A stretch of 64,000 bases of DNA from Clavaria fumosa (lineage: Eukaryota; Basidiomycota; Agaricomycetes; Agaricales; Clavariaceae), in the NCBI GenBank assembly GCA_951802425.1, contig OX637800.1, positions 372,001-436,000 on the forward strand. The letters are read 5' to 3'. Made by a program: the position numbers and the translations under genes. Below, in pieces: positions 4,636 to 62,581 of the stretch. The number at the start of each line of letters is the position of its first letter. Within the stretch, counting starts at the first letter, position 1. A model generated the notes under the pieces. It had not been told where the DNA came from, searched no databases, and worked only from the letters and a program-made list of their open reading frames with translations.

Positions 4636-7049
4636 TTGAACTCGAGTGAAAAGTAAGCGGAGTGAAAGGAAAATAAAGTAAGACAACACGGAGAAGACGA
4701 AGAGAGGTTCGGAGTCGGACTTGGGAGAAAAAATCAAAGGTTCGGAGTTTACGGAGAAGAGGAGAATGTAATGGGTTATGTTGGAGCTGGAGGAACTTCC
4801 ATCAAAGTATTGAAGAGGTAGAGGTTGCGGAAGTGGCATTAAAAGGTTTGGACAGGTGTTCGCAAGTGTAAAATTGATAAAATTCATGGATGCGCCACAA
4901 TCCACAAGAGTATTTAGAGGAATCAAGCCAAAATCTGGTATTTGCATTTTTATGAGGAAGGATTGGGAGGACTGGGAAGCAATAGGAGTATTGAAAAAGT
5001 TACGAGGAAACTGAGGGGAAGAGGAACTAGTCATGGCCCACACAAGTATGGGGGTTGGATCGTCACGACTCAGAGTTCCCCCAGAAGCTCCTGAGTTGCT
5101 TCCTTGTTTACCTCTTCATGCGGGTCATCCACATCCTCTTCCACTTCTTCCTCTACTTTGTATTCTTCCTGAAACTCTTCCTCTCCTTCCTCCAGCGTGA
5201 AGACAGCTTGTCTGGCTACTCATCAATCAGGGCAAGCAGCGCTGTAGTGTCCGGGCTTCCCACATCTCAAGCAAAGATTTCCCTGATGACAACATTCTCA
5301 TTCCTCATTGCTGAGGGGGACGTAGGGCAGATTCAGGTTCGGATTCAGCTGTTGGGGTGGATTAGCGGGTTGCAGCGAAGTTGTGGGATTCCCTGCAGCT
5401 GGTCAGGGCATTGTAGGATTATTGCCAGTGGCTGGATGAGGTCGCAACGTCGCTTGGTAGTTGCGATTTCCGCCTTGTTGAGCCGAGGGGTGATTTCTGC
5501 CTTGTTGAACAGGGGGATGGGGAGCAGGAGGGTTAGTGCGGAATTGAGTTTGGCAGGTCTCACTCTCATACTCCCAGTGCCTCTGATCAATCTGCATCGC
5601 CAAATCGCGAAGTTCCTGATATGTGGTGGGTCACAGAATGACTTTCATGGCCTCTTTGATGCATGTGGACATCAAGCGGTGGAGTTCAGATTGTAGGGTG
5701 GCCAAGTTCCAATTGGATTTGAAAGTGAATTACTCAAAATGAATGATGTGGTTTGAGAAACATTCATTTTCACCCATTTGCAACAAGCGAAGGTTCTGGT
5801 CTGCCTCAATCTGCATGTTTACTACCCCAAACATTCCTCCAAACTTGTGAATAAACCCTTCCCAGGAGTGTAGGCCCAGGTGGTTGGGATTGAATTGAAG
5901 GAGGGAGGTGTAGTGGCTCTGCGCGGTGTCTGTAAGGTAAGAAGCCACGAAAGTAACCTTCTTGTGGTCGCCTTGGAAGGTTATGGGCTTTGCGAAGAAA
6001 GTCATAAGACATTCCGTGACAAAGGGTTTCCATCTGCGCTGGTTGCAACCATTGAACAGCTCGGGGCACCTGGTGTCGAGCTTGGATTCTCGAGCAAAGG
6101 TGTCTCAGGTCGATGGTCCTTCGGAGGGAGGAGCCTGGTAATAGTAATGGTGGTGGTGGGTACCAGGGGCCTCATCTTGAAGCACGGTGGCAAGATGTGG
6201 AGGCATAGGGGGGACCAGAGGGACCTGTGGGGCTTCAGCCTGAGACGGGGGGCGAGATGCTGGTCATGCTTCCGGTTGTGGAATGCAGAAGGGCTTGACC
6301 AGAATCTCAAGGCGGGGGGCAAGTTGAAGTGTTGCTTTGGTCCCTATAGGGTCACGAGGGAGTGCCCTACTCAGAGTAGTGGCTGGCTGCATCCATGTAG
6401 GCCAGCTGCTGCAAGGGGCGGTATACCTAGGGATCCTAGAGACTATGGCGGGTTGCTTGTCTGGCACAGCAGGATTGGCAAAATTCTGTAAGGATTGTGC
6501 CACGACTTGGAAAAGCGGTGCCATATCTCGAGGTCCTCTGGTGGGTTAAACCTGTCTTGGAGGTCGCGAGGGGGTATCCAGGTCAGGAGGAGTGGGAACT
6601 CCGTGGTCGGTCGTCCCTGGATACTGTTGCTGACTCTCGTATAACCAGTTCTGTGGATTAGTGCGGAATCCATCTGTCAATCGTACCAAAGGCTCATAGA
6701 GGTTCATGGTCTCTATGAGGTATGCTAATTCTTCGTCAAGGGTTCCCACTTCGTATTGGCGGCGAGTATTGTTGAGAATTTGGTAGGTGTGGTGGCAAGG
6801 GCAGTTGAAGCACGGGTAGCCGAGCTGCTCCACAAGCGATTCGGCCTCTTCTCACAGTGACGAGGCGTGGCTAGGTGCGATTTGGGCAGGTTCTTCAGGC
6901 TGCAATTGAATGATGGATGCAGGTCGTTCCTGTACAGTAGTAGGCGGCTCACGAGTAGTCTCCAATGCCATTGGAGTAATCGTGTGGCTACCTGTGCATG
7001 TTTGAAAGTGGTGAGTGATGGGTTGGGGAGGAGTGTGACTGGAAGACAT
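4636..7049 (-). pseudogene. gag: Gypsy Gag-protease, decayed, minus strand (element G2 copy 1)
   Basis: Read on the minus strand: Gag start (ATG at 7049, MSSSHTPPQPITHHF); a helical region with LGYPCFNCPCHHTYQILNN; the capsid core MTFFAKPITFQGDHKKVTF to FGGMFGVVNMQIEADQN near 6005-5800; a zinc knuckle CLRCGKPGHYSAAC at ~5273-5233; an acidic linker; and a retropepsin-like LVDCGASMNFINF at about 4900. The frame carries several TGA stops where relatives have Arg CGA (for example after SSL at ~6857 and after the zinc knuckle) and small frameshifts. Pol is missing: the sequence gives way to the zinc-cluster element below 4640. It is closely similar to the plus-strand copy at 58965-62400. Confidence 0.8.
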
Positions 7050-7103
7050 AATAGGGTGTTATCCAAGTGTTGAGTGGTGGGGCGAGGGGGAGACTTGATA
7101 TTA

Positions 7104-8527
7104 TGCTAGGGCCTGTCCCGTCTCGATAGTAGTGCCGGAGATTGACTTGTTGGTGACCTATGCTGGAAACTCACTAAGACCAATCAACTGTTGAGCACAG
7201 TCAAGAATGCTCAGTCCCGGAAGGTCACAAAGACATCTGAGAAGATGTGAGAGTGAAGAAAGACAAGTATAGAAAGGGAAGACGTTGCTGGGAAGGTTGC
7301 GAAGTTGGTAGACAAAATGTAAAAGGAAGAATTGACGAGGTGGGAGAAATAGATGATGCTGAGAAGGTCGCAAGGTCGACCGATGAAGTGTAAGAAAGGA
7401 AAAGATGAAGTGAAGGAAAAAGGACGATGTTGGGAGGGTCATGGGTAGTCGCGACGAGGTTAGGAAGTGTGTCGATGAAGGCGATGACTTTGCCAACCAA
7501 TGGGAGAACCTGTAGGGTTCAAAAGATCAGTACCAAGATGAAATGAAGAGAATACTTAGGTGCACAAGTTTATATGAGTGCAGAGGATGAGTCAGAGTGA
7601 AGCAGGAGTGTCTTGGCAATCTTGAAGTCACCAAGTGAGACAAGACTTATCAATCGCGGTGGTTCCAAGCTCAAAGGGCATAATAGCCTCAAGCTTAAAC
7701 CAATGTGCATCAATATCAAGTCTACAGTATGAGAAGTACATGTGAGACTTATATACATGTGTACAGAGAGTATAATAGAAAAGGAAAAGTACAGAAGTCG
7801 CCAGGCAACAAGACTATAGTAGTACGGGGTATGTTTAGTCATAAAGTGACTAGGTGCATGTTCTACTAAGGTTGCGAGGGGTTAGGTATGCATAAGTAAG
7901 GTCACAAAGATGACCTGTCACAAGTCGTGACCTAGTTAAATAAGTATATATGTCGCTATAACTACAGAGGGATTCTCAGATCATAAGTAACATAATTATA
8001 GATGACTGAGGAGAAGAAGGGACGCATATTTGAAGTAATAATACAGCTGACTGTTGGTGGCACATTTGAGTGTTAAGGTCGCAAGGTCATAAGAGCAGTC
8101 ACGGGGGTGACACTAGTGATGCAGGTGATGCAGGTGACTTTGGGCGGGAAGTCACATGGGTAACGCATGTAATGCAGGTAACAGCTGTAACACTGTTATT
8201 GTATTGGCGCTGGTAGTGGTAGCGCCAGGGGTGCCATGAGGCAAGTCACATGCTGGTGGAAGTAGATGCACAATGATGTGTCACGCATAAGATTGGTGGG
8301 TCCAGGCAGAGTATATGTGTAGAGTGAGAGAGTAGGAGGCGTCGCAAGTATGGCTTGGTGGTTGCGAGTATTGTGTGGGCGCAGGGGAGGTTGCAAGGGC
8401 TTCCAGAAGGAGAGAGCAGGTTTCGGAAGCATTTAGAGGGGCTTGCGAGGTGGTAGAGGGTTGTTGGGAGGGTTGTAGGTGTCAATAGTGTTGATTTGAA
8501 TAGGGGAAAAATGAATGGGTCCTGACA
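7104..8527 (-). repeat. 1.42-kb LTR of element G2, minus strand
   Basis: On the minus strand it begins TGTCAGGACCCATTC (8527) and ends GGACAGGCCCTAGCA (7104). It is homologous end to end to the solo LTR at 60215-61691 and the partial LTR at 58455-58912, and it directly precedes the matching gag, so it is the 5' LTR of that copy. The distal 400 bp consist of ~70-bp degenerate tandem units. The terminal ..CTAGCA differs from the ..CTAACA of the other copies by one transition. The small ORFs inside it are not genes. Confidence 0.85.
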
Positions 8528-28884: not shown

Positions 28885-28889
28885 GAGAG
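28885..28889. repeat. 5-bp target site duplication GAGAG, left copy
   Basis: GAGAG directly before the 5' LTR, repeated at 38293-38297 directly after the 3' LTR. A 5-bp TSD is normal for Gypsy integrase. Confidence 0.93.
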
Positions 28890-29114
28890 TGTAAGGCTAT
28901 AGGCCTTTTCTATTCTTTTATTACATAATATACATACTATAATAGTCTACTAGCATAGCCGCTTAGGCCATGCTTACATCAGCGGCCCCTAGAGGGCCGC
29001 TCGCCTATATATATCGCGTCGCGACTGTACAGAGAGGGTAGATCCCTCTACATAGAACTACCATACTCAATATACAGTTGAGTCCGGTTCTTTTGAGGGA
29101 TAGAAAGTATTACA
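28890..29114 (+). repeat. 5' LTR of the Gypsy element
   Basis: 225 bp, TGTAAGGC...ATTACA, with a TATA-like CTATATATATCG at 29005-29015. It contains a perfect 8-bp hairpin at 28981-29001 (AGCGGCCC/GGGCCGCT). It differs from the 3' LTR only in CGTCGCGAC versus CGTCGTGAC. Confidence 0.95.
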
Positions 29115-29152
29115 ACTTTTTTGAACCTTCAACACAACAAGTGTGGCTAGAA

Positions 29153-32100
29153 ATGGGTTACACCCGTATAGCCGCGCAGAAGAAGCACAACAGGAAGGGA
29201 GGAGAAACTCCTCCCTTGGTAGGACCTCTGCGCGACACAGGCATCGCGCAGCCAGAGGGAATAGGACCTCTGTCGAGCCCAGCGGTGAATCCCCGCTAAG
29301 GGCTGACGTGGCGTCACCAGCCCCTGACGACGGCGTTAGGTCCGAAATGCCGTCGACACGTGGCAATCGCCACGAGGAGGGCGCCACAATGCGCCAAGTC
29401 ACTGGTGAAGCGCCATCGTTCGAGAAGGCCGGACCTTCAAAAGGAAAGGGCAGAGAGCCCTTAGAAACCCGCGAGAGGTGGCCGCAAGAGCGGTCAAGCT
29501 CGCGGGCTCCCTCCAATAGTGGAGATGAGCCCACAGCGATAGCGCGAGCTAACGCTGTAGCCGAGAGACTCTCAGACATTCAGGCGGAACTTTCCCGCCA
29601 GGATGAAGAGTTTGAGGCTCTTGTAAGGGCAATGAAAAATCGCCAAGCCACTATTCGGCAACGGCTAAGCAAGGAGGCTACCCACGTCAGGCAGGTGCTG
29701 GACTCGCTAGATGAGCAGGGAACCGCGCTAGCGGCTCCCTTACGGCGGCAATGCCGTGATTCGGTGGAACCCGAAGCGGGGCCTGCCCCGCCGAGTCAGG
29801 CACCAGCTGACCACGAGGAAGGGTGGCGAAGGGAGAACCGCACGGACGGTTCTCGAACCCCTGGCGAACCAGGAATGGAGGGTGGCAGCCCTCGAGAAAT
29901 AGCGGGGCCAGAGCCACGGCTTATGCCGCGCTACCCACAGCTGGGTCAGCGAGAGCCAACAGGCCGGATGGGTCTGTTCGGATGGATGGAACCGCCCCAG
30001 AAGGAGTGGGAGATTACTCAGGAGGTGTCCCCGAGTTCTACAAACTACCAGAGCGATGTATTACATCGCTACCTCGTGATGATATGAGATAAAACCTCGC
30101 TATTGCCTGAGGCAATAGCTGAGATTAGGGGGATTAAGATTGACCCCCCTGAGCTTTATGACGAACGAGACGACCTTGTCGTCTGGGAAAGGTGGCTCGA
30201 TGGCCTCCTTAATTACTTCTACTTCTATAGAGTAGTCGGCCCGCAGTTGGAGCACCAACGCGTTATGCTAGCGGGGTCACGCTTAAGCGGAATAGCCGCT
30301 ACTTGGTATACCCAAGAAGTAACGGGTCTATCCCGTGCTCCTCGAAGGTGGACCTTCGAGGAGTTGATAACCACTATGTTTAAGCAGTTCCTGACTGAGG
30401 TAACAGCGCAGAAGGCAGTGGATGCCTTCTATCAGGTGAAGTTTACAAAGGCAAAGGGCGCCTTGGGCTTCTGGAACGAATTGGCCCAGGTGGCGGAGAG
30501 AATGCTCACCCCGCCTGACGCCGGTACGATGAAAAGGCAGTTCCTTAACGGACTGCCTAACAAGATGGTGGAGGCCATCTTCAAAACTCGCGCGATTAGC
30601 ATCGAGTTATCCTCGGTTGAGGATATTATCGACGCTAGTCGCCAAGTGGAAGCGACCCTCCACTACCTCCAGCAGTGGAGTGCAGTGCCTTCGGTAGGGA
30701 ACCAGGCAGGTCCCAAAGGAAACCCGCCTACAGGCAGAGTGCCTGTGGGGCAGAGGTTTGTGAGACTGCGGCCGTATCGGCCGCACACAGACCGTAGGCC
30801 AGGGGAACCTGTTCCCCTGCAGATTGACTGCGCGCGAGACGAGCGCGTGCAAACCGGAGGAAGCAAACCCCGGCTAGAACCGCCTAAGGTGGTGCCCAAG
30901 ATTGGGGTACGAGGCGGAGAGGAGCGGAAAGCTCCTCTAACATGCTATATGTGCGGGAAAGCAGGGCACTACGCAAATGTGTGCCCTCAGTCACAGCGAA
31001 AGCCAGAGGCTGTGAGGGGAAATGTAAGGAACTACGCCTTACAAGAGGAGCCGGGCGAGTTGGAGCCTGAGGAACCGCCGGAAACACTGGCGGTTGAAAG
31101 CGAGGAGCCGGAGGGTGAAGCCCTACCGGAGGAAGTCGCGGGAGACGACTACGCTGGTCGCGGGGACCAGTACGATTCGGACGAGCTCGAGGAGGAGGTG
31201 GAAAGCGACCAGGTCGCTGGAATCCGGGAATTAGAAGAGGACGAAGTCCTCTACACGACAGAAGTACGCGTCGGCCATGTTGACAACAGGCTGTTTCGGG
31301 CGCACGTCTGGAAGGAGCGGACGGGATCGCGCCCGGTAGTGACAAAGGAGGCTAGGCAATGCCTCGCGGCCTACATCACTGTGAACAGTGTAAAAGTGTA
31401 TACGCTTTTTGATTCTGGAAGTACCCCAGACTTGATGAGCCTGGACTTTGCCCGGGTGACGAAGGTACCAACCTTCCAACTGGATAATCCAGTTCCTATC
31501 CAACTCGGCTGTATCGGCAGCCGATCGACAATCACACGCGGATGCCGTGTAGCGGTGGATTTGGGAGGAATACTGGTGGAGGACCAGTATTTTGATATAG
31601 TGAACATCGACCGCTATGATATCATAGTCGGAACGGCGTTCATGTATGACCGCCGTGTGATACTGGATGTGCACCGACGTGCAATCCAGATTGGCGAAGG
31701 GAAGGGAAAAACCCTTCAGGCGATGTCGCCCAGTGAGGAGACGGAAGCATTACGCGTCCGTATATCGGCTAAGAATGCGCCAAGGAAGGGAGCTCGAAAG
31801 AGCTGACTACACTCGGGCCCCCAGGATGCAGGTGAGCCCTGGAAGGGGGGAGAGGCTAACGCCTCTGTAAAGATAGACGACGCCTACCTCGAAGGCAGGC
31901 GTGAGTACTGGTTTAACCAGTATGCTGAGCTCTTTGGGGGAGTTCCCCCCAGACCGCTGCCGTTTCGGGCGGTGAACCACCGCATACCCTTAATAGATGA
32001 AAAGCAAGTCTATAATTATTACCTGCCTCGGTGTGCTGAGGCATTTAAGGAACAATTCCTTGAGAAAGTGAACCGTTATATTACTAACGGTTGGTGGGAA

Positions 32101-35100
32101 GCAGGAGCGGCATCGCAAGCAGCTCCTATGTTATGCATACCAAAAAGCAGCCAGAACCCGCTGCTACGGACAGTCGTGGACTGTCGGAAACGGAATGCGA
32201 ACACAGTACGGGATATTACCCTGTTGCCTGATCAGGATCGGATCAGGCAGGACGTGGCTAGAGCCGCGTATAGGTCAAAGATTGACCTATCGGATGCGTA
32301 CGAGCAAGTACGCGTAGAGCCTGAGGACGTGTGGAAGACGGCGTTTGCGACCGTCTTGGGCACCATGTTCTCACAGGTGATGCAGATAGGGGATTGTAAT
32401 GCTCCTGCTACCTTCCAGCGCCTGATGACGCATATATTTCGTCATCAATTGGGAAAGTACGTGCACGTGTACTTAGACGATGTATTTGTCTTCTCCAAGA
32501 CCCTGGAGGACCATGAGTGGCACTTAAAGACGGTCTTTGAGACCCTCAAAGGCGCGAGCCTTTTCTTGAGCAAGAAGAAGTGCTCGTTATACACGAAGAG
32601 CATAGATTGCTTAGGGCATATTATAGATGCCCGAGGAATCCATGTCACAGTGGATAAAATGGATAAAATCTGTAACTGGAAAATGCCGACAAGCGTTAAC
32701 GAGGTGCAGAGGTTCCTCGGATTAGTACAGTACATCGGACAGTTCATGCCTGATCTGTCCACTTACACTGGCCCTTTGGCTAGTCTGTGTAGTGAAACGC
32801 GAACGTTTCACTGGAGACCACTCCATGACAAGTGCATGGAGATGATTAAGGCATTGGCGTGTAAAACGCCAATATTACGCCCGGTAGACGCAGCAGTACA
32901 GGAGCCAATCTGGCTTGACACGCATTGCAGGTTACAGTCCATGACCTGTGCTGAGGATGGCAACATCAAAGCTCATCTAAATGCAATGATAAAGATTCGA
33001 GATGAACTCGAAGGCATCGGTGCATCAGTCATGGACGATGATTTCACAACCATGATACTTACTTCCTTGCCACCCAGCTATCACAGCCTCCTTCACTCAA
33101 TCACACATGCTGCAAGCCTGTCATCTACGGAGATCTCTCTGAATGACCTTATGCACATCGTTTTAGAGGAAGCAAGACAGCGCGAAATAGCAGACCTTGT
33201 GTCGAAATCTGGTGAAGCAGCCCTTCATGTTAAAAAGGTAAAGGCCGCAAAGGAAGATCAGACGACTCAGGCACAAAAATCACCCTGGGAAAACTGCAAA
33301 CGCACCAATCACAAGACCAAAAACTGCTACTCCGACAGCGGAGTGAAGCAAGGCCAAGCACCCTGGCAAAAGAAAAAGGAGAAGGCCAATACTGCAGCCA
33401 CACAGGCCAAAAAGCAAGAAAATGACGAAGAATACCTCGCGTTTACTTGCCTAGCGGACCGGCATGAAGTCGCAGCCGCCATATCCCAGATGGGTAAACC
33501 GCACGACATCATCCTAGACAGCGGTGCAACCACGCATTTCTGTCCAGACAGGTCAATGTTGTCGCGTTACCATATGAGTGACGCGACGGATGAGATTCAT
33601 CTGGATCACGAGTACGTAAAGGCGGACATTTGCCTTGACCCTGAAGGGGACAAGTTGCCCCGCGGACACCTGGAGGAGGTGCGCGCACTACGAGTACGCG
33701 CACCTGCCGTGGACCAGGAGACCGAGCAGGAGCAACCGCCGCCTATGCCCCAAGCAGACGGGGATGTGAGGGACGAGACGCTCATGCCCTTAAGGCCCCG
33801 CGTGGAAGGGGGGGATAGCAGGATGCTGCAAAGCATCTGTGACGGCTATGAACAGGATCACCTGTTCAAAATAATTTTGGAGAAACCGGGAAACTACACC
33901 GGTTTTAAGATCAGGGATGACCTGATCTTCGCTGAGAATAAAAAGGGAGACGAGGTGCTCTGTGTGCCTCGTACCCTTCATGAAGGGAAAAGCATCCCTG
34001 GGAGAATAATCCAGGAAGCCCATGCGGTCCTAGGACACATGGGGTCGCGGATAACGATGGATTACGTCCGCCGTTACTACTGGTGGCCATCGGTGTCTAA
34101 AGACATCGATAAGTTTTGCTCGTCATGCGGCGTATGCCAGACGAGCAAGACTTCCCCTCAGAAGCCACAGGGGCTTCTACACACCCTTCCGATCCCCAGG
34201 CGGCCCTGGGAATCAATAGGAATGGACTTCGTAGGTCCATTTCCTATGTCGAAAGAGGTGGACTACCTCTGGGTGGTGATCTGCCGCCTCACTTCACTGG
34301 TACACCTAGTACCAGTTACCGTTTCGGTAACGGCAGCAGAGCTAGCCTGGCTCTTCCTAACCCATGTAGTGAGACTGCATGGGTTGCCAGGATCGATTGT
34401 GTCTGATCATGATCCGAGATTTACATCTGCCTTTTGGCAGGAAACACACCAACTACTCAGTGTCAAGCTGCGGATGTCCACAGCTTTCCATCCACAGACG
34501 GATGGAGCGACAGAACGGTCGATCCGATCGGTGGTCCAACCGGACCAGACAGACTGGGCAGAGCGAATCCCAATGGTCAAATTCACCATTAACACATCAA
34601 TAAGCGCGTCGACGGGGTTTGCCCCGTTTGAGCTCACCTATGGGTACATGCCCCAGATGATGGCAGAGTTGCCAGAAGACCTCCAGGTGGTGCCCAGAGG
34701 GGTACGGATGTTCGCAGAGAAAGCCACGCTCAACCTTGCAATGGTGCACGACGCGATTATAGAAAGTTGCATCCACCAAACATTTTACGCTAACCAGCAT
34801 AGACAGGCAGAGCACCCGTTTAGAGAGGGAGAATTAGTCTACCTCTCAATGGAGAACTTGAATCTCCCTAAAAAACGAGCTAGAAAGCTCATGCCGAAGT
34901 TTATTGGGCCATACCCAATATGGTCATGTAGACCGGAATCGTCTACATACGAGCTGGAGCTCCCCGACTCGCTAAAGTCGAGGAGAATCCACCCGACGTT
35001 CCATGTCAGCCGGTTGCGGCGACATGAACCAAACGACGACGCGTTGTTTCCGCATCATGAAGTGAAAGTCTTTTATGACTTTGGTGTGGATCCAAAGGAG

Positions 35101-35319
35101 GAATGGCTAGTAGACGCCATTATTGGCCATAGGTGGAAAGGCCGCCACCTGGAATGCGAGGTTCGATGGAACCTCAGGGATACGACCTGGGAGCCGTACA
35201 TGGGGGTCAAAGAGCTGGCTGCTCTAAACCATTACCTTGAACTACAAGGTGTAGACTCATGGAGGGCGCTACCTAGGCGCCCTCGAGCAGAGCGCGGACA
35301 GAGCGCCCGCGCGGAGTAG
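29153..35319 (+). pseudogene. gag-pol: Gypsy gag-pol, single frame with one frameshift and two TGA codons; RNase H replaced
   Basis: Gag starts at ATG 29153 (MGYTRIAAQ). One base is missing near 29268 (GACCTCTG versus GACCCTCTG in the copy at 2425), after which one frame stays open to 35319 except for TGA at 30085 and 31804, both explicable as Arg CGA. Order: coiled-coil-like N-terminus; capsid (KIDPPELYDERDDLVVWERW..FLTEVTAQKAVDAFYQ); zinc knuckle CYMCGKAGHYANVC (~30947); protease LFDSGSTPDLMS (~31410); RT with VDCRKRNANT, KIDLSDAYEQV and YLDDVFVFS (~32470); at ~32920 an abrupt switch to a Copia-type segment where RNase H should be; integrase from ~34000 (HAVLGHMG..CSSCGVC; GMDFVGPF, VSDHDPRF, DGATERS: the three catalytic residues); and a C-terminal chromodomain EWLVDAIIGHRWKGRHLECEV. 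RT and integrase motifs look intact. Confidence 0.88.
32920..33585 (+). other. Copia-type Gag-protease segment fused in frame into Gypsy pol
   Basis: After Gypsy RT ends in AAVQEPIWL the protein becomes CRLQSMTCAEDGNIKAHLNA, DFTTMILTSLPPSYHSLL and EEARQREIADLVSKSGEAAL, the pattern of the UBN2-type Gag of fungal Ty1/Copia elements. A degraded zinc knuckle (WENCKRTNHKTKNC, first Cys changed to Trp) and a second retropepsin motif DIILDSGATTHFCPDRS follow. Gypsy-like sequence resumes near 33590 (VKADICLDPEGDKLPRG). The segment occupies the place of RNase H, keeps the frame, has no stop, and uniquely lacks the hairpins that crowd the rest of the element. No LTRs or TSD of its own are seen, so it arose by recombination or template switching, not by a simple insertion. 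Confidence 0.85.
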
Positions 35320-35453
35320 TAAACGCGATCGAGCCAGACCGCTGGGTCGTTAGCCACAGTGACTAAGTCACGTGGTGGCTCCACCGTAAGGTACAAAACC
35401 TTAAGAGGGCCCGCCCTCTTTTTCTCTTTTTTCCTCATCAGCCATTTGTTACA

Positions 35454-37770
35454 ATGGATGATCCGATGGGGGAAACCCCATCTCCTCGCGCTACCCGCGC
35501 CGCCACTGCTACCGCCGCCACCTCTACCGCTACCGCCGCTGTCCCTGGCCTTGCGCCAGGGAACTCGCTGCCGACAAGCATTGTCGGAACAGCTGGGTTG
35601 TCCCAGCCATCATTGTTGCAAGGGGAGGAAACTCTCCCCTGGGTCCAGGATCGCATGATCCATGCGATCACCCACGGATCCCGGTGCACTCAGTGTATCG
35701 GATTCCGTCGTCACATCTTCGAGTCGCTGCTGCACTCGGACGAAGCATTTCAACAAACGCTTAAGGAAGCGCAGGAAAGCGCTAAGCGTGAGCTCGAGCC
35801 GGAGCTCGGAATGATACAACGCAAGTTGGATGACTTGCATGAAGAGTATGAGAAGGGCAACGCCCTTTGTGCTGGACACTGGCAAAAGCTTGAAAAAGCT
35901 TACGATAGCCTGGATAAGGTCGAGGCCGACCTTAGAAAGGCAAAGGAGAAGGTTCTCTCCTTGACAGAAAAGTTGGCAAGCGCCAACGAGGAGCTCACCA
36001 CAGTGCGAACGGTGGCGAAAGGGAAGGGACCTGACAGGGATCCCTTGGAGCAGGACCCTAAAAGGGCCCGCACTGCTGTCTCATACGCGGACATAGCGCC
36101 GCCTATGGGGGACGTGGACGTCCCCATGAATATTGAAGAGGGGTATCCCCCTCTTCCACCTGCTGGTGTTAGCCAGCAGAACCCCGATGCCTCACTGAGG
36201 CATAAACGAATGTTTGCGGAGACAGTGCTTGCACATCCGACAAGGGGTTATCCCTTTAATGCCCCCCACCTGGACAGGGCTCCAGATGGCTATCCCTGGC
36301 CATCGGGGATGTCCGTCAAGCCCGGGGCGTGGGCTGTCGAGTTGAAGACGGTTGAAGAGGTGATAGCCCTCAACCAGCAGGCGCACCATGGAGCGCCTGA
36401 CGGCAGTTATGATATGACTGCTGTAATGAAGATGCGATGGGCCGTTAAGGAGGCCCAGAAGAACGTGGCAGCGGGAAAGCTGCCTACGCCAGTTGAGGAC
36501 TGGCTGTTGAGGAACTGGAGAGTTCCTGCCGGCATCGAGAAATCGGCAGACCGGGTGGCACGCCATCTGCAGGGGCAGATGTTGCGAGAGAGTGGAGGGA
36601 TGGGCGACCCATCCCTGAGGGCAGGACCCTTGGAAGTCGCAGGAGGGGGAGCACCCTCCTATCCGTCATACCAGACATTGCCGCTGACAGCGGCAAGAGT
36701 GGTTGTGCCTCCCATTAGGGAGTTTGTAGAGACCGGGGAGCCGTTGCTCCCCCAAGAGCTGTGGCTCTCCTTTGTAGGGGAGAAGGGAGAAATTCCCCCT
36801 ATGAACCCGAAAGGCGACAGAGGCACAGTGTCAGACCTGCGCTGCTGGGCCGCTGACATAAGGATGGGCAGAGTGGCCGTCCTTGGTATTGATAAGGACG
36901 GGGACTCACCCCTGTCCTTTGCACATAAGGTGGCCATCTGGCGTACCATAATGGCGTGCGCACCGTCCCGGGCCCGAATGCGGCGCCCGTTCCTAGCTAT
37001 GGCTGTAGCCCTCTTTGTGTCAAAGGGGGCGTACGCGCAGGCCATTAAAGGGAGTGTAAGATGTTGGTTAAGTGAGACCGTATATCCTGCGTCACAAGTG
37101 CGTTAGTACCCTGTTTATAGCAGTGGTTACACAGTTGTAGTGACAGTAGTAGGATAAGTGTGGCTGATTAGCTAAGCGTCCAGGGAAAGTCCCTTCACCC
37201 CTAGGGTGGACCCTTACAGGGAGAGTCCTCCCTGCACAACGTTCCAGGCACTGGAACACAAAGATAACACCAACTGTCGCGCAGACGATTGAGGCGTTTG
37301 TAGACGCCGGAGTCTCCATTGGGGAAACGGAGCTCTGGGACGAGTTTGTACTCACATGGGCACGCGAGTACGTGCGAAAGGGGAATGCCCCCTTGGACGA
37401 TGATATCCAGCTAGTGCTGGGTGAACGGGAGAAGCCTCCCATACCGCCCCGGACATATGCACTGCTAGAGTGCATAGGGTGTGGGGCGCGTCCGTGCCGT
37501 CTTCGGTTAAGCAAGAAGGCGGGAGATGAACGGAGGGGCGATGCACCCCTGGAAGACGGTGGAAGCACGTCCACCATTAGAAACCCCCTAGGGCTACCTA
37601 TTGGGGGTTTAACAATATCCCAGACAGAGGGTGCGGGGCCCTCTCAAAAACAAAAGAAAGCGGCTAAGTCATCAGCCGCTAAGGCCGCAAAGGGGCCTGT
37701 TGTGTCGTCACCCGACTGGAGCAATGACGAGGGCGAGCCGCCATGCGACTACGAGCAGGGCTCGGACTAA
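35454..37770 (+). CDS. Accessory ORF between pol and the 3' LTR of the Gypsy element
   Basis: The first ORF starts at ATG 35454 (MDDPMGETPSPRATRAA) and is open for 550 codons. It has an Ala/Thr-rich start, CTQCIGFRRHIFESLLHSDE, a coiled coil (~residues 100-185, RKAKEKVLSLTEKLASANEEL), a basic patch KRARTAVSYADIAPP, and a globular C-terminal half. A second open stretch from ~37284 to the TAA at 37768 (TIEAFVDAGVSIGETELWDE, CIGCGARPCRLRLSKK, Lys/Ala-rich tail) probably continues it through an intron (donor GTAAGA ~37055, acceptor GCGCAG ~37283). The position is that of env, but there is no signal peptide, no strong membrane segment and no furin-like site. The function is unknown. It is hairpin-rich like the rest of the element. 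Confidence 0.6.
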
Positions 37771-38055
37771 GCATCCGAGCCCTTTAAAAACATATGCCTA
37801 CCCCGCAGGACAAGACAGCGGCACTTGGGGCACCCCCCACCGGAGCATGCCGCTCGTGACACGCTGTCCAACTGGGGGCAGGTCACACAGACCACCGGGT
37901 AGGACCTGTCAGCACCAGGCAAAGGCCCCAGGAGGGGATCGCGCCCAGTGACATGGCGGTAACCCTCCCCAAGGGGATGCGCCCCTTGTAACGCTATTCT
38001 ACTTCTGCTCGTCGTCCTGCGCTGCCCACGCGTTGCCTCTGGTTGGGGCCTCTCC
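37771..38055 (+). other. 3' untranslated region of the Gypsy element
   Basis: Non-coding tail between the accessory ORF and the polypurine tract. It still shows hairpins, for example GGGG-ATGCG-CCCC near 37974, and the stem of nine at 37758-37782 spans the stop codon of the accessory ORF. This shows that the hairpins are not a by-product of codon use. Confidence 0.6.
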
Positions 38056-38067
38056 GGAGGGGGAGGG
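38056..38067 (+). other. Polypurine tract of the Gypsy element
   Basis: GGAGGGGGAGGG directly abutting the 3' LTR, the expected primer site for plus-strand DNA synthesis. Confidence 0.85.
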
Positions 38068-38292
38068 TGTAAGGCTATAGGCCTTTTCTATTCTTTTATT
38101 ACATAATATACATACTATAATAGTCTACTAGCATAGCCGCTTAGGCCATGCTTACATCAGCGGCCCCTAGAGGGCCGCTCGCCTATATATATCGCGTCGT
38201 GACTGTACAGAGAGGGTAGATCCCTCTACATAGAACTACCATACTCAATATACAGTTGAGTCCGGTTCTTTTGAGGGATAGAAAGTATTACA
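38068..38292 (+). repeat. 3' LTR of the Gypsy element
   Basis: 225 bp, 224 identical to the 5' LTR, directly preceded by the purine tract GGAGGGGGAGGG and followed by the TSD GAGAG. Confidence 0.95.
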
Positions 38293-38297
38293 GAGAG
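38293..38297. repeat. 5-bp target site duplication GAGAG, right copy
   Basis: Matches 28885-28889; marks the insertion point inside the hAT element. Confidence 0.93.
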
Positions 38298-58454: not shown

Positions 58455-58912
58455 AGTTATCGCCTTCACCAACACACTAACTCAACACTGTCGTGACCAC
58501 CCACAACCCTCTCAACAACACCTCTTTCTTTCACCTTGTCTTTTTCCTTTCTTATGCTTTATTGGTCAACTTTGCAACCTTCTCAGCATTACCTATTTCT
58601 CCCACCTTGTCTATTTCTCTTTTTAAGCTTTGTCAGTCAACCTCATGACCTTCTCAGCAACATCTCCTTTCTCCCAACTCATCTTTTTCCCTTCCACACT
58701 TTGTCTACTGACTTCACAACCTTTCCAGTGATGTCTCCCTTCTCCCTACTTGTCTATTTCTGTTCTTACACCCTTTCAGACATCTTCGCAACCTTCTGGG
58801 ACCAAGCATTCTTGACTGTGCTCAACAGTTGATTGGTCTTAGTGAGTTTCCAGGATTGGTCACCAACAAGTTGACTTGTGGCATTACTTATGAGACAGGA
58901 CAGGCCCTAACA
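58455..58912 (+). repeat. Truncated 5' LTR of element G2 copy 2
   Basis: Matches the last ~458 bp of the LTRs at 60215-61691 and 7104-8527, from AAAGTTATCGCCTTCACC to the terminal GGACAGGCCCTAACA. The first kilobase is absent. It contains the ~70-bp degenerate tandem units (CAACCTTCTCAGC..). Confidence 0.85.
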
Positions 58913-58964
58913 TAATATCAAGTCTCCCCCTTGCCCCACCACTCAACACCTGGATAACCCTATT

Positions 58965-61900
58965 ATGTCTACCAGTCACACTCCTCCCCAACCCATTACT
59001 CACCCTTTCAAACCCACACAGGCAGCCGCACGATTACTCCAATGGCCTTGGAGATGACCTGTGAGCCACCCACCACCATTCAAGAGCAACCAGCATCCAT
59101 CGTTCAATTGCAACCTGAGGAACCCGCCCAAATTACTCCCAGCCACCCTTCGTCATCGCAAGAAGAAGCCAAATCCCTCATGGAACAGCTTGGCTACCTA
59201 CACTTCAATTGTCCCTGCCTCTGTACTTACCAGATTCTAAACAACACTTGCCACCAGTACAAAACAGGTACCCTTGACAAAGAGTTGGCGTATCTCATAG
59301 AGACCACAAGCCTCTATGAGGCCTTGGTACGATTAATGGACGAATTCCACACAGAACCACAGAACCGATTGTATGAGAGTCAGTGGCAGTATCTAGGGCC
59401 TACTGATTGTGGAGTTCTGACTCGCCCAGACCTAGATACTTCCTCGCGACCTTTGAGATCAGCCCCGCCAACCAGGGGACCCCAGGATATCACTCTGCTT
59501 TTCTAGGTCACAGCACAATCTTTGCAGAATTTTGTGAATCCTGCCGCACCTGATGAGCAACCAGCCATCATTTCTAGGATCCCTAGATATACTGCCCCTG
59601 CAGTAGCTGGCCCACTTGGATGCAACCGGCAACTGCTCTGAGCAGGGCACTCCCTTGCGACCCTGTAGGAACTGAAGTGACCTTCCAACCTGCCCCCTGT
59701 ATGGAGATTCTGGTCAACCCCTTCTGTATTCCACAATCAGAATCACAAACAGTACCTCCAATGGAGACACAACCAACACATCGTGTCCCATCTCAGGTTG
59801 AAGCCCTGCAGGCCCCTCTGGTTCCCCCCATATCTTTGCATGTTGCCACCACACTTTGAAACGAGGCCCCTGGTACCCACCATCACCAAGCCCCTCCTGC
59901 CGAAGTACCATCAACTCAAGACACCCTTGTCCGAGAATTCAAGCTTGAGAGTAGATGTCCCGAGCCTTTCAATGGTCATGACCAGCACAAATGAAAACCT
60001 TTCGTCATGGAATGCCTCATGACTTTCTTTGCAAAACCCATAACCTTCCAAGGGGATCACAAGAAGGTTACTTTCACAGCCTCTTACCTCATGGACACTG
60101 TGCAGAGCCACTACACTTCCCTCCTTCAGTTTAATCCCAACCACCCAGCCTTGCACTTGTGGGAAGGATTCATCTGCAAGTTTGGAGGAATGTTTGGAGT
60201 GGTAAACATGCAGATGTCAGGACCCATTCATTTTTCCTTGCCCAAACTGACTCTATCGACACTTATGAACCTCCCAATGGCCTTCTATAACCTCGTGAGC
60301 CCCCTTATACACTTCCGGAAGCCTCTCCGACCTTCCCCACTCTTACATGACACTCATGACCACCAGGCTGTACTTGCGATGCCCTTCCCTAACGCACCTT
60401 ATGCATACTCACCACTTGAACCCACCATATCAACATGCGACATGCAGTTCTACAATCTCTTCATTTGGCATGTGACCCACCATGTGACACCACCAGTGCT
60501 ACCAGTGTCACTGGCATTATCAGTGTCACCAGTGCTACCACCATTACCAGTGCTACTACCATTACCGGCACTACCAGCATTACCCACATGACCTCCTGCC
60601 CAAGGTCACCTGTGTCACTATCATCACCCATGTGACTGCTCTTATGACCTCATGACCTTAACACTCAAATGTGCCACCAATGGTCAGCTGCATATACCCT
60701 TCAAATTATGCTCCCCTTCCTCTCCTCAGTCATCTATAACTACGTTACATATGATCCGAAGACTCCCCCATAGTTATAGTTATTTAACCAGGTCACGACC
60801 CATGACTGGTCATCTTCGCAACCTTACTTATGCATTCCTAACCCCTCGCAACCTTAGTAGAACATGCACACAGTCATTCCCTGACTAGTTATACCCCCTA
60901 CTACTATAGTCTCATTGCCTGGCAACCTCTGTACTTTTCCTTTTCCCTTTTACTTCTTGTACACACATATATAAAGTCTTGCATGTAATTACGGTATGCT
61001 AGACTTGATATTGACACACTTTGGTTTAAGCTTGAGGCTATTATGCCCTTTGAGCTTGGAACCACAGCAATTGATAGGTCTTGTCTCACTTGGTGACCTC
61101 GACAATACCAAGACACACTCTGCTTTATTCTAACTCATTCTCCACACTCGTATAAACTCGCACACCTAAGTATTTCCTTTACTTCATCTTGGTGCTGATT
61201 CCTTGAACCCTACAGGTTCTCTTGTTGGTTGGCAAGTTATCGCCTTCACCAACACACTATTTGACACTGTCATGACCACCCACGACCCTCTCAGCAACAT
61301 CTCTTTCTTTCACCTCATCTTTTTCCTTCTTATGCTTCATTGGTTGACTTTGTGACCTTCTCAGTGTTATCCATTTCTCCCACCTTGTCAATTTCCTTTC
61401 TTACATTTCGTTGGTCAACTTTTCAACCTTCTCAATGACCTCTCCTCTCTCTCAACTTGTCTTCTTCCCTTTCTACACTTGGTCTACCAACTTTGCAACC
61501 TTTCCAGCAACATCTTCCCCCTCTCTACTTGTTTCTCCTCATTCTCACATCTTCCCAGATGTCTTCGCAACCTTCCGGGACTGAGCATTTTTGACTGTGC
61601 TCAACAGTTGATTGGTCCTAGCAAGTTTCCAGGATCGGTCACCAACAAGTCAACTTGTGGCATTACTTATGAGACAGGACAAGCCCTAACAGCAGATTGA
61701 GGCAGACCAGAACCTCTGTAGGTTGCAGATGGGTGAAAACAAGCAGTTTTCAAACCATATCATCTGCTTTGAGCCCTTCACCTTCGAATCTAATTGGAAC
61801 TCAGCTGCCCTGCAATCAGAACTGTACTGTTTGATGTCCATGCGCAATAAGGAGGCTATGAAAGTCATCCTGTGACCCACAACATACCAGGAACTTCGAG

Positions 61901-62440
61901 ATTTGGCCATGCAGATTGACCAGAGGCAGTGGGAATACAAAAGTGAGACCCACTGGACTCAATTCTGCATCAACCCACTGGCCCCTCGTCCTCCTGCCCA
62001 ACCTGGTGGAAACCCCGACCTCTCACCAACGTCGCAATCTTATTCCCCTGCTGGTAACAACCTTACAACGCCCAACCCAGCCGAAGGAGCGCTCGCAACC
62101 CCCTTGCAACCTTCTAATCTACCTCCCCAACCAAATCTGAGTCCGCTGTATGTTCCGCTTAGCGACAAAGAATGAGAACGACGCCATCAGGAAAACCTGT
62201 GCCTGAGATGTGGAAAACCAGGCCATTTCAGTGCTGCGTGCCCTGACTGACAAGTAACAGCATGAGCTGTCTTCACCATGGAAGAAGAAGACTTTGAGGA
62301 AACTTATGAAGTTGCAAAAGAGGTTGAGGAGAATATGGATGACCTGCACAAAGAGTTTAATGAGGAAGCGACTCAGGAGCCCCCAGGGGAACTCTGAGTC
62401 GCAACGAACCAACCCCCATACTCGCGCAGGCCACAATTCA
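58965..62440 (+). pseudogene. gag: Gypsy Gag of element G2 copy 2, split by a solo LTR
   Basis: Gag begins at ATG 58965 (MSTSHTPPQPITHPFKP); a one-base deletion relative to the copy at 7049 shifts frame within 40 bp, and the main frame resumes at MALEMTCEPPTTIQEQPASI (59042). Continuing: LGYLHFNCPCLCTYQILNNT; capsid MECLMTFFAKPITFQGDHKK, FICKFGGMFGVVNMQ (to 60214). It is then interrupted by a 1477-bp solo LTR and resumes at 61697 with EADQNLCRLQMGENKQFSNH, LRDLAMQIDQRQWEYKSETH, and the zinc knuckle CLRCGKPGHFSAAC (~62205). TGA stops again sit at Arg positions. Pol is absent; the homology to copy 1 fades near 62440, just before a minus-strand zinc-cluster gene. Confidence 0.8.
60215..61691 (+). 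mobile_element. Solo LTR (1477 bp) of element G2 inserted in its own family's gag
   Basis: TGTCAGGACCC...GCCCTAACA, flanked by GCAGA at 60210-60214 and 61692-61696; removing it and one GCAGA restores a continuous gag sequence as in copy 1. A TATA box (ACACATATATAAAGTC, ~60962-60977), an ACCAGTGCTACC-type microsatellite (60490-60590) and four ~70-bp tandem units (61262-61560) lie inside. Solo LTRs arise by recombination between the two LTRs of a full element. Confidence 0.95.
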
Positions 62441-62581
62441 TTCCTTTTCATCTCACTTTCCTTGCCTCTCCTTTTTGCGCTTGTTTTCACATTCCAAATT
62501 CACAGACATATATACACAAGAAAAAACACCAAAAAAACAAAAAAAAACTATCTACTACTTGCAAGCTTTTTCTTTCCCCTT
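62441..62581. other. A-rich junction
   Basis: Contains AAAAAACACCAAAAAAACAAAAAAAAAC (62520-62549). It is the junction between the G2 copy and the minus-strand zinc-cluster gene, comparable in position with the poly-T tract at 4588-4620 beside G2 copy 1. Confidence 0.45.

Follow-up and report, generated by a model that had tools for sequence, protein, structure and literature searches.

A Ty3/gypsy retrotransposon of Clavaria fumosa densely packed with short perfect hairpins

Genome-scale ordered RNA structure (GORS) has been described for RNA viruses, in which a folding-energy excess runs the length of the genome and consecutive local stem-loops are untied to known signals (PMC7642675). The excess is about 15% in SARS-CoV-2, 7.5-10.7% in hepatitis C virus (HCV) and at most 23.4% in a vertebrate RNA virus (PMC7642675). 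Among long terminal repeat (LTR) retrotransposons, the genomic RNA of yeast Ty3/Ty1 is locally structured, an A-rich mosaic with stable structured regions of up to 30% (PMC11381356). Perfect short inverted repeats, with an occasional exact loop inversion, are also known from template switching, in events traced to RNA genes and to 39 yeast genes (PMC8794818, PMC8604942). Here we describe a Ty3/gypsy LTR retrotransposon, identified by its LTRs, target-site duplication and domain order, that occupies positions 28890-38292 of a 64,000-nucleotide stretch of the fungus Clavaria fumosa (contig OX637800.1, positions 372,001 to 436,000; hereafter the window). Short perfect hairpins fill its coding parts and 3' region. 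That the entire sequence has been moulded, in the manner of GORS, into successive short local hairpins, which selection keeps, is a proposition we hold to be about evenly balanced.

Stems were counted if perfect, at least 7 bp long and closed by a loop of 0-12 nt, and were compared with dinucleotide shuffles (50 for each of the five coding parts) and, in those five parts, with synonymous-codon shuffles (50 each). The coding parts hold 5.3-12.3 such stems per kb, against means of 0.6-0.7 in dinucleotide and 0.5-1.2 in synonymous-codon shuffles, and the observed density was not reached by any shuffle. The initial annotation, made from the letters of the window, had proposed that codon choice cannot explain the hairpins and that they would exceed matched shuffles; both points are borne out by a density far above either null. 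The features of the element are as follows (stems per kb are those of at least 7 bp).

28885..28889: left target-site duplication, GAGAG, read from the sequence
28890..29114, + strand: 5' LTR, 225 bp, including the hairpin 28981-29001
29143..30087, + strand: open reading frame (ORF) 1, 5.3 stems per kb
30103..31806, + strand: ORF2, zinc knuckle and aspartyl protease (RVP_2), 12.3 stems per kb
31972..32914, + strand: pol before the insert, reverse transcriptase (RT; RVT_1), 10.6 stems per kb
32915..33561, + strand: copia-type gag fragment inside pol, Retrotran_gag_2 match, 0 stems
33568..35319, + strand: pol after the insert, integrase zinc binding (H2C2), integrase core (rve) and SH3_Tf2-1, 8.0 stems per kb
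35454..37106, + strand: ORF4, accessory reading frame, Pfam matches under cut-off only, 11.5 stems per kb
35649..35669, + strand: example hairpin, 9 bp stem, 3 nt loop, 95.7% of cells paired in 13 sequences
36135..36156, + strand: nearly invariant hairpin, 9 bp stem, 4 nt loop, 99.1% of cells paired in 13 sequences
37107..38067, + strand: region from ORF4 to the 3' LTR, purine tract directly before the LTR, 6.2 stems per kb
38068..38292, + strand: 3' LTR, 225 bp
38293..38297: right target-site duplication, GAGAG, read from the sequence

The non-coding parts are no richer in hairpins than the coding parts. In 37107-38067 the density compares with 0.7 per kb in 20 shuffles. The LTRs reach 13.4 and 13.3 stems of at least 6 bp per kb, against shuffle means of 4.0 and 3.8 and a top of 20 shuffles of 13.4 and 8.9; at 7 bp or more (4.5 and 4.4 per kb) both lie inside their own shuffle range. 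The excess that the initial annotation saw along the entire element has gaps, with no stem of at least 7 bp in the copia fragment (counted over 32916-33560) and none of at least 6 bp in 29114-29142. All eight hairpins first quoted are present, six exactly as described and two longer (30338-30363, a 12 bp stem; 37757-37783, a 10 bp stem), and the estimate of about nineteen in 35460-36210 agrees with 18 non-overlapping stems of at least 6 bp counted in 35454-36253. The rest of the window has 1.2 and 0.9 stems per kb, against 0.8 and 0.6 in shuffles.

The excess also has a characteristic geometry. For stems of at least 6 bp, observed and expected counts are 2 and 2.7 at a loop of 0 nt, 11 and 2.0 at 1 nt, 22 and 1.3 at 4 nt, 22 and 1.8 at 5 nt, 24 and 1.8 at 7-8 nt, 15 and 1.3 at 11-12 nt, 14 and 5.5 at 13-15 nt, 13 and 8.0 at 16-20 nt, and 12 and 15.3 at 21-30 nt. 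It is therefore a large excess of local hairpins only, limited to loops of about 1-20 nt, and not one of loop-less palindromes or of loops longer than 20 nt. Direct repeats of at least 6 bp with spacers of up to 12 nt exceed shuffles by about 1.8-fold (45 vs 25). Ordinary chance, composition or codon bias has virtually no standing as an explanation: no point in its support was found, both kinds of shuffle are far lower, direct repeats are so modestly raised, and the copia insert and other elements are low.

These hairpins are a property of the family. In the searched genome (48.8 Mb, 17 contigs) the RT piece has at least 133 matches and ORF4 at least 81, with 130 and 79 candidates scored, and the excess is present in every family locus fetched; the 29 RT-region copies (L012-L040) hold 6.4-11.8 stems of at least 7 bp per kb. 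By comparison, nine copia-matching loci (L042-L050) have 0.8-2.5, and 20 other Ty3 loci (L057-L076; RT about 30% identical) have 0-2.6, against 0.5-0.9 in shuffles. The initial annotation had held that neighbouring elements lack such density; other retroelements are indeed much poorer, but not quite at chance, the other Ty3 loci showing a mild excess. Two of these, L062 and L076, were considered as hairpin-rich Ty3 loci and rejected, since tandem repetition of a CAGCTA-type unit accounts for most of their signal; the array, of about 33 bp units with CAGCTA-type hairpins, lies beside the other Ty3 elements at L062:1-620 and L076:2098-3480. Among diverged members of the family, L051-L054 are hairpin-rich over the stretch matching the element and poor ahead of that stretch, and L055 and L056 are hairpin-rich throughout.

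Folding energy follows the same division. In 350-nt windows compared with dinucleotide-preserving shuffles on both strands, the excess (+/- strand) is 24.7/23.3% in the window copy, 29.5/30.1% in L018, 28.5/26.3% in L029, 24.7/25.8% in L056 and 22.8/21.5% in L055. It falls to 7.4/9.4% in other Ty3 loci (6 of 20) and 6.5/5.4% in copia-matching loci (3 of 9), and to -0.7/0.9% in two 7-kb stretches elsewhere in the window and -0.7/-1.9% in the copia insert (one window). In 42 windows of 200 nt the mean z of the window copy is -4.03 in sense and -3.94 in antisense, and the sense-strand z nowhere exceeds -1.0.

Many individual hairpins are not shared between copies. Sites occupied in at least 90% of copies number 34 of 139 in the RT region and 12 of 76 in ORF4. 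Eight ORF4 copies of 83-92% identity keep intact 11-18 of 26-30 reference hairpins, and their density is still 15-20 stems of at least 6 bp per kb. The hairpins also appear to have been accommodated by the protein. When the RT-integrase stretch of L012 was compared with 16 homologues (conserved meaning at least 0.9), conserved codons made up 34 of 99 in 5' arms, 45 of 101 in 3' arms and 213 of 526 outside, and conserved residues were kept at 32 of 34, 43 of 45, 34 of 34 in loops and 196 of 213 outside. The arms are as conserved as the rest, and the hairpins were fitted without visible protein damage.

The main evidence for selection comes from where substitutions fall on trees of the copies. 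The RT tree held 30 sequences, one of them the window copy (L025, L031 and L051-L054 were too short to be included), with several branches, some internal, of low support; the ORF4 test used 13 sequences, partly from other places in the genome than the RT copies. Nulls were matched for base, CpG and codon position, and P was obtained by resampling sites, not trees. On internal branches stem substitutions are depleted in both regions, at 25.6 vs 35.0 expected in RT (ratio 0.73, P 0.014) and 13.9 vs 20.0 in ORF4 (0.69, P 0.025). Short terminal branches of the RT tree show no depletion (30.5 vs 32.2, 0.95, P 0.34), and all ORF4 terminal branches together give 30.8 vs 33.0 (P 0.30). A less controlled version gave an internal non-CpG ratio of 0.51 (range 0.13-1.09 over 30 reference copies) and 0.98 and 1.04 on short terminal branches. 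Since stems are depleted on internal and not on short terminal branches, the pattern is read as purifying selection during activity: there are signs that selection keeps hairpins in active elements and is weaker or absent after insertion.

Two earlier forms of this evidence were replaced. Substitution at fourfold sites is lower in stems (0.075 vs 0.123, permutation P 0.0002), but this no longer serves as the main evidence, since picking stems from a single copy biases the shared variants; branch tests took its place. A first branch test with stems labelled by majority showed no contrast (non-CpG ratios 0.61 internal, 0.66 terminal) and was replaced because such labels favour conserved sites.

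How would selection act? The hairpins would be maintained by selection on the element while it is single-stranded in its life cycle, and the likeliest candidate molecule would be the genomic RNA, which might be folded compactly so that it can be packaged and is protected from RNA silencing by the host. Folding density, rather than any particular structure, would be what matters. The initial annotation had likewise suggested selection for a highly folded genomic RNA. Selection for a folded molecule receives moderate support from the depletion on internal but not on short terminal branches, the former in two regions; the specification of RNA does not share it, there being no clear G-U preference and no difference between strands.

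Several results weigh against maintenance by selection, or against RNA as its target. RT terminal branches taken together are depleted (101.6 vs 124.8, 0.81, P 0.003), the source being the long ones (71.1 vs 92.5, 0.77, P 0.001); these agree with the reading only if they hold time before insertion, as is plausible in the case of separate subfamilies. Branch events are few, the support of some internal branches is low and the P values come from site resampling, and in the less controlled version internal CpG changes are undepleted (1.17). Losses of hairpins on internal branches outnumber gains (45 vs 6 in RT, 17 vs 9 in ORF4), and therefore hairpin density may be out of balance. The covariation of paired positions that the initial annotation had proposed to test is weak once column composition is controlled. 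In RT, both-side Watson-Crick cells number 71 vs 57.0 ± 4.6 in column shuffles (reached by 1 of 500) and pairs 28 vs 23.7 ± 2.8 (41 of 500); in ORF4 the cells number 16 vs 13.8 ± 2.3 (115 of 500), and in a tool control on an ORF4 piece the cell count was reached by 45 and the pair count by 123 of 500 shuffles. An earlier claim of decisive covariation, from 71 Watson-Crick vs 3 non-Watson-Crick both-side changes, was withdrawn because a double transition in a Watson-Crick pair always yields a Watson-Crick pair and column shuffles give 57. The sole contig of a relative obtained from outside this genome (36% protein identity) is low in hairpins in its RT part. Finally, G-U is not clearly preferred over A-C, and there is therefore no clear sign of sense-RNA folding, the counts favouring neither strand.

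That last point bears on which molecule folds, since G-U would be expected to be better tolerated than A-C if selection acted on sense RNA. In ribosomal RNA, 78.5% of two-step compensations involve G-U (PMC8794818). In the window copy, stems with one mismatch comprise 10 G-T and 12 A-C, against 1.5 each in shuffles. Selection on hairpins of minus-strand DNA, or on both strands, rather than on sense RNA alone, is an improbable alternative that draws on such counts, as an A-C of the sense strand corresponds to a G-T wobble in its complement. Stem transitions outside CpG that occur in at least two copies give A-C 28 times and G-U 11 times (0.67 vs 0.23 relative to rates outside stems), one-mismatch states found in at least two RT-region copies are A-C in 16 and G-T in 5 cases, and folding energy is equal on both strands. 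The count of shared transitions uses window-copy stems, however; with 13 other reference copies it varies, and its direction is opposite with L055 (0.47 vs 0.63) and, by a small margin, with L056 (0.44 vs 0.49). Branch-aware counting on internal branches gives G-U 6.8 and A-C 6.7, or 18 and 14 with majority-labelled stems, and does not bear out a minus-strand reading from A-C exceeding G-U; the window copy alone is near parity. A strand-symmetric form of selection, in which single-stranded cDNA, or RNA and cDNA both, would be the selected molecule and the element would carry the GORS of a reverse-transcribing genome, is somewhat less remote, though still unlikely.

The other alternative is mutational: in reverse transcription or replication the growing strand would fold back, copy one arm from the other and so perfect quasi-palindromes, with no benefit to the element. 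We regard this as possible, if doubtful. The mechanism has been described in yeast genes (PMC8604942) and put forward for RNA hairpins (PMC8794818), and its footprint is visible here as exact inversions of two 4-nt loops, one in L025 at window 32800 and the other in L088 at window 35472, each seen in a single copy; template switching therefore does act on these hairpins. The similar numbers of A-C and G-T mismatches fit a process blind to RNA stability. Asymmetry between arms would fit as well: 5' arms are purine-rich, at 0.624 (interval 0.587-0.664, n=132 hairpins, 28890-38067) against 0.509 in dinucleotide shuffles.

As the force that maintains the hairpins, which the initial annotation had offered as an option, template switching is not borne out. 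Neutral arm copying, we argue, predicts compensated changes at a normal rate, but stem changes on internal branches are depleted and mostly uncompensated (non-CpG, a mean of 0.3 of 12.9 compensated). Differences between copies are mostly in single pairs: among hairpins of other copies that are imperfect in the window copy, those with at least two broken pairs there number 13 of 164 in RT (ten RT-region copies chosen across the identity range) and 26 of 120 in ORF4 (twelve copies), and change is therefore mostly point by point. More than one compensated pair is seen in 2 of the 69 hairpin-copies from RT and in 0 of the 16 from ORF4. Neither arm has been overwritten at the protein level (identity of the 5' minus the 3' arm -0.047 ± 0.059, 44 hairpins), and the 618 haplotype contrasts with at least two broken pairs are mostly mixed (5' arm only 101, 3' arm only 85, mixed 432); multi-base homogenisation of arms is confined to a minority of contrasts and lacks a one-arm bias. 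The lack of any surplus of hairpins in non-coding over coding parts also speaks against a process of this kind, and the purine asymmetry is weaker against synonymous shuffles, 6 of 100 reaching the ORF value. Directional copying into the 3' arm as the source of purine-rich 5' arms was rejected on protein conservation and the contrasts between copies. Of 11 other copies, 9 also have 5' arms whose purine interval exceeds 0.5.

The ends of the element are flanked by a 5 bp target-site duplication and its LTRs differ at 1 position in 225 bp. The order RVP_2, RVT_1, H2C2, rve, SH3_Tf2-1, that is, protease, RT, integrase, is that of Ty3/gypsy. In the Pfam scan the zinc knuckle of ORF2 scored slightly under the model cut-off, the integrase core was under its curated cut-off and ORF1 had no match; a chromodomain (PF00385), a chromovirus trait, was not matched in the window copy, and some pol relatives have one. 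No RNase H model matched between RT and integrase in the window copy, where the copia fragment occupies that place; listed pol relatives have PF17917/PF17919, which we take to be RNase H models. A tRNA primer-binding site usually starts with TGG; by eye, the sequence after the 5' LTR does not. Rfam 15 gave 0 matches at gathering score across 28890-38292.

The insert at 32915-33561 matches copia-like loci, and the listed family copies (40 candidates scored) align on its two sides only. It is in frame with pol in the window copy and 99% identical to L042 (contig C10); such a chimera perhaps arose from template switching between RNAs. ORF4 has one relative among the matches listed (P0001, 55% over 47% of the query), against 3390 for pol, and would seem to be a rarely seen accessory gene. 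Its frame is 579 aa in three copies including that of the window and 715-820 aa in many others, and P0001 continues, in a comparison by eye, with sequence resembling the window past about 37270; 37059-37240 may be an inserted or intron-like stretch.

Of the 3390 pol relatives, the 120 listed share 50-65% identity with almost the full length of the query; few of these are named, all from basidiomycetes, and they include Ty3/gypsy polyproteins of Phanerochaete sordida and Trametes sanguinea, compared as protein only. Searches for the relatives' DNA confirmed none in a viral collection and returned 1 contig in a bacterial/archaeal collection and 1 distant record among plasmids. Within the window, a 404-bp piece of the same family at 2200-2603 (LTR and leader, 96%) has perfect hairpins of its own, among them one at 2505 with a 10-bp stem. 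A subfamily about 82% identical in RT matches residues 1-225 only, often in a 282-aa frame, and occurs in many places, often near contig ends; it is perhaps carried in a subtelomeric repeat. Another repeat lies in inverted copies at 5005-8128 and 58542-62462, about 51-57 kb apart and 75-85% complementary.

How, then, does this element compare with described systems? In the titles and abstracts of the literature searched, outside which most subscription papers lie, no report of a hairpin-saturated retrotransposon was found. The genomic RNA of yeast Ty3/Ty1 belongs to the same class of element and is locally structured, but the accessible text of its description, unlike what is seen here, mentions no perfect hairpin every 40-60 bp (PMC11381356). 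Template-switch hairpins share the perfect short inverted repeats and the occasional loop inversion, whereas here the saturation extends to a whole mobile element, with block changes in the minority (PMC8794818, PMC8604942). Since a single genome holds dozens of copies, and since the foreign insert and the neighbouring retroelements serve as controls, data from this family can tell selection for hairpins apart from their origin by mutation. The closest likeness is to GORS viruses, in which positions of stem-loops are poorly conserved between relatives, as they are here. The + strand excess of 23-30% reaches or passes GORS values, with dinucleotides kept in both analyses and program and shuffle number differing (PMC7642675). 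Unlike those genomes, this is a fungal LTR retrotransposon with no clear G-U preference and with both strands folding alike; it is not a positive-strand RNA virus, and therefore it works like GORS rather than being GORS. Structure of equal or greater strength in such an element would point to the folding of entire mobile genomes as a more widespread strategy.

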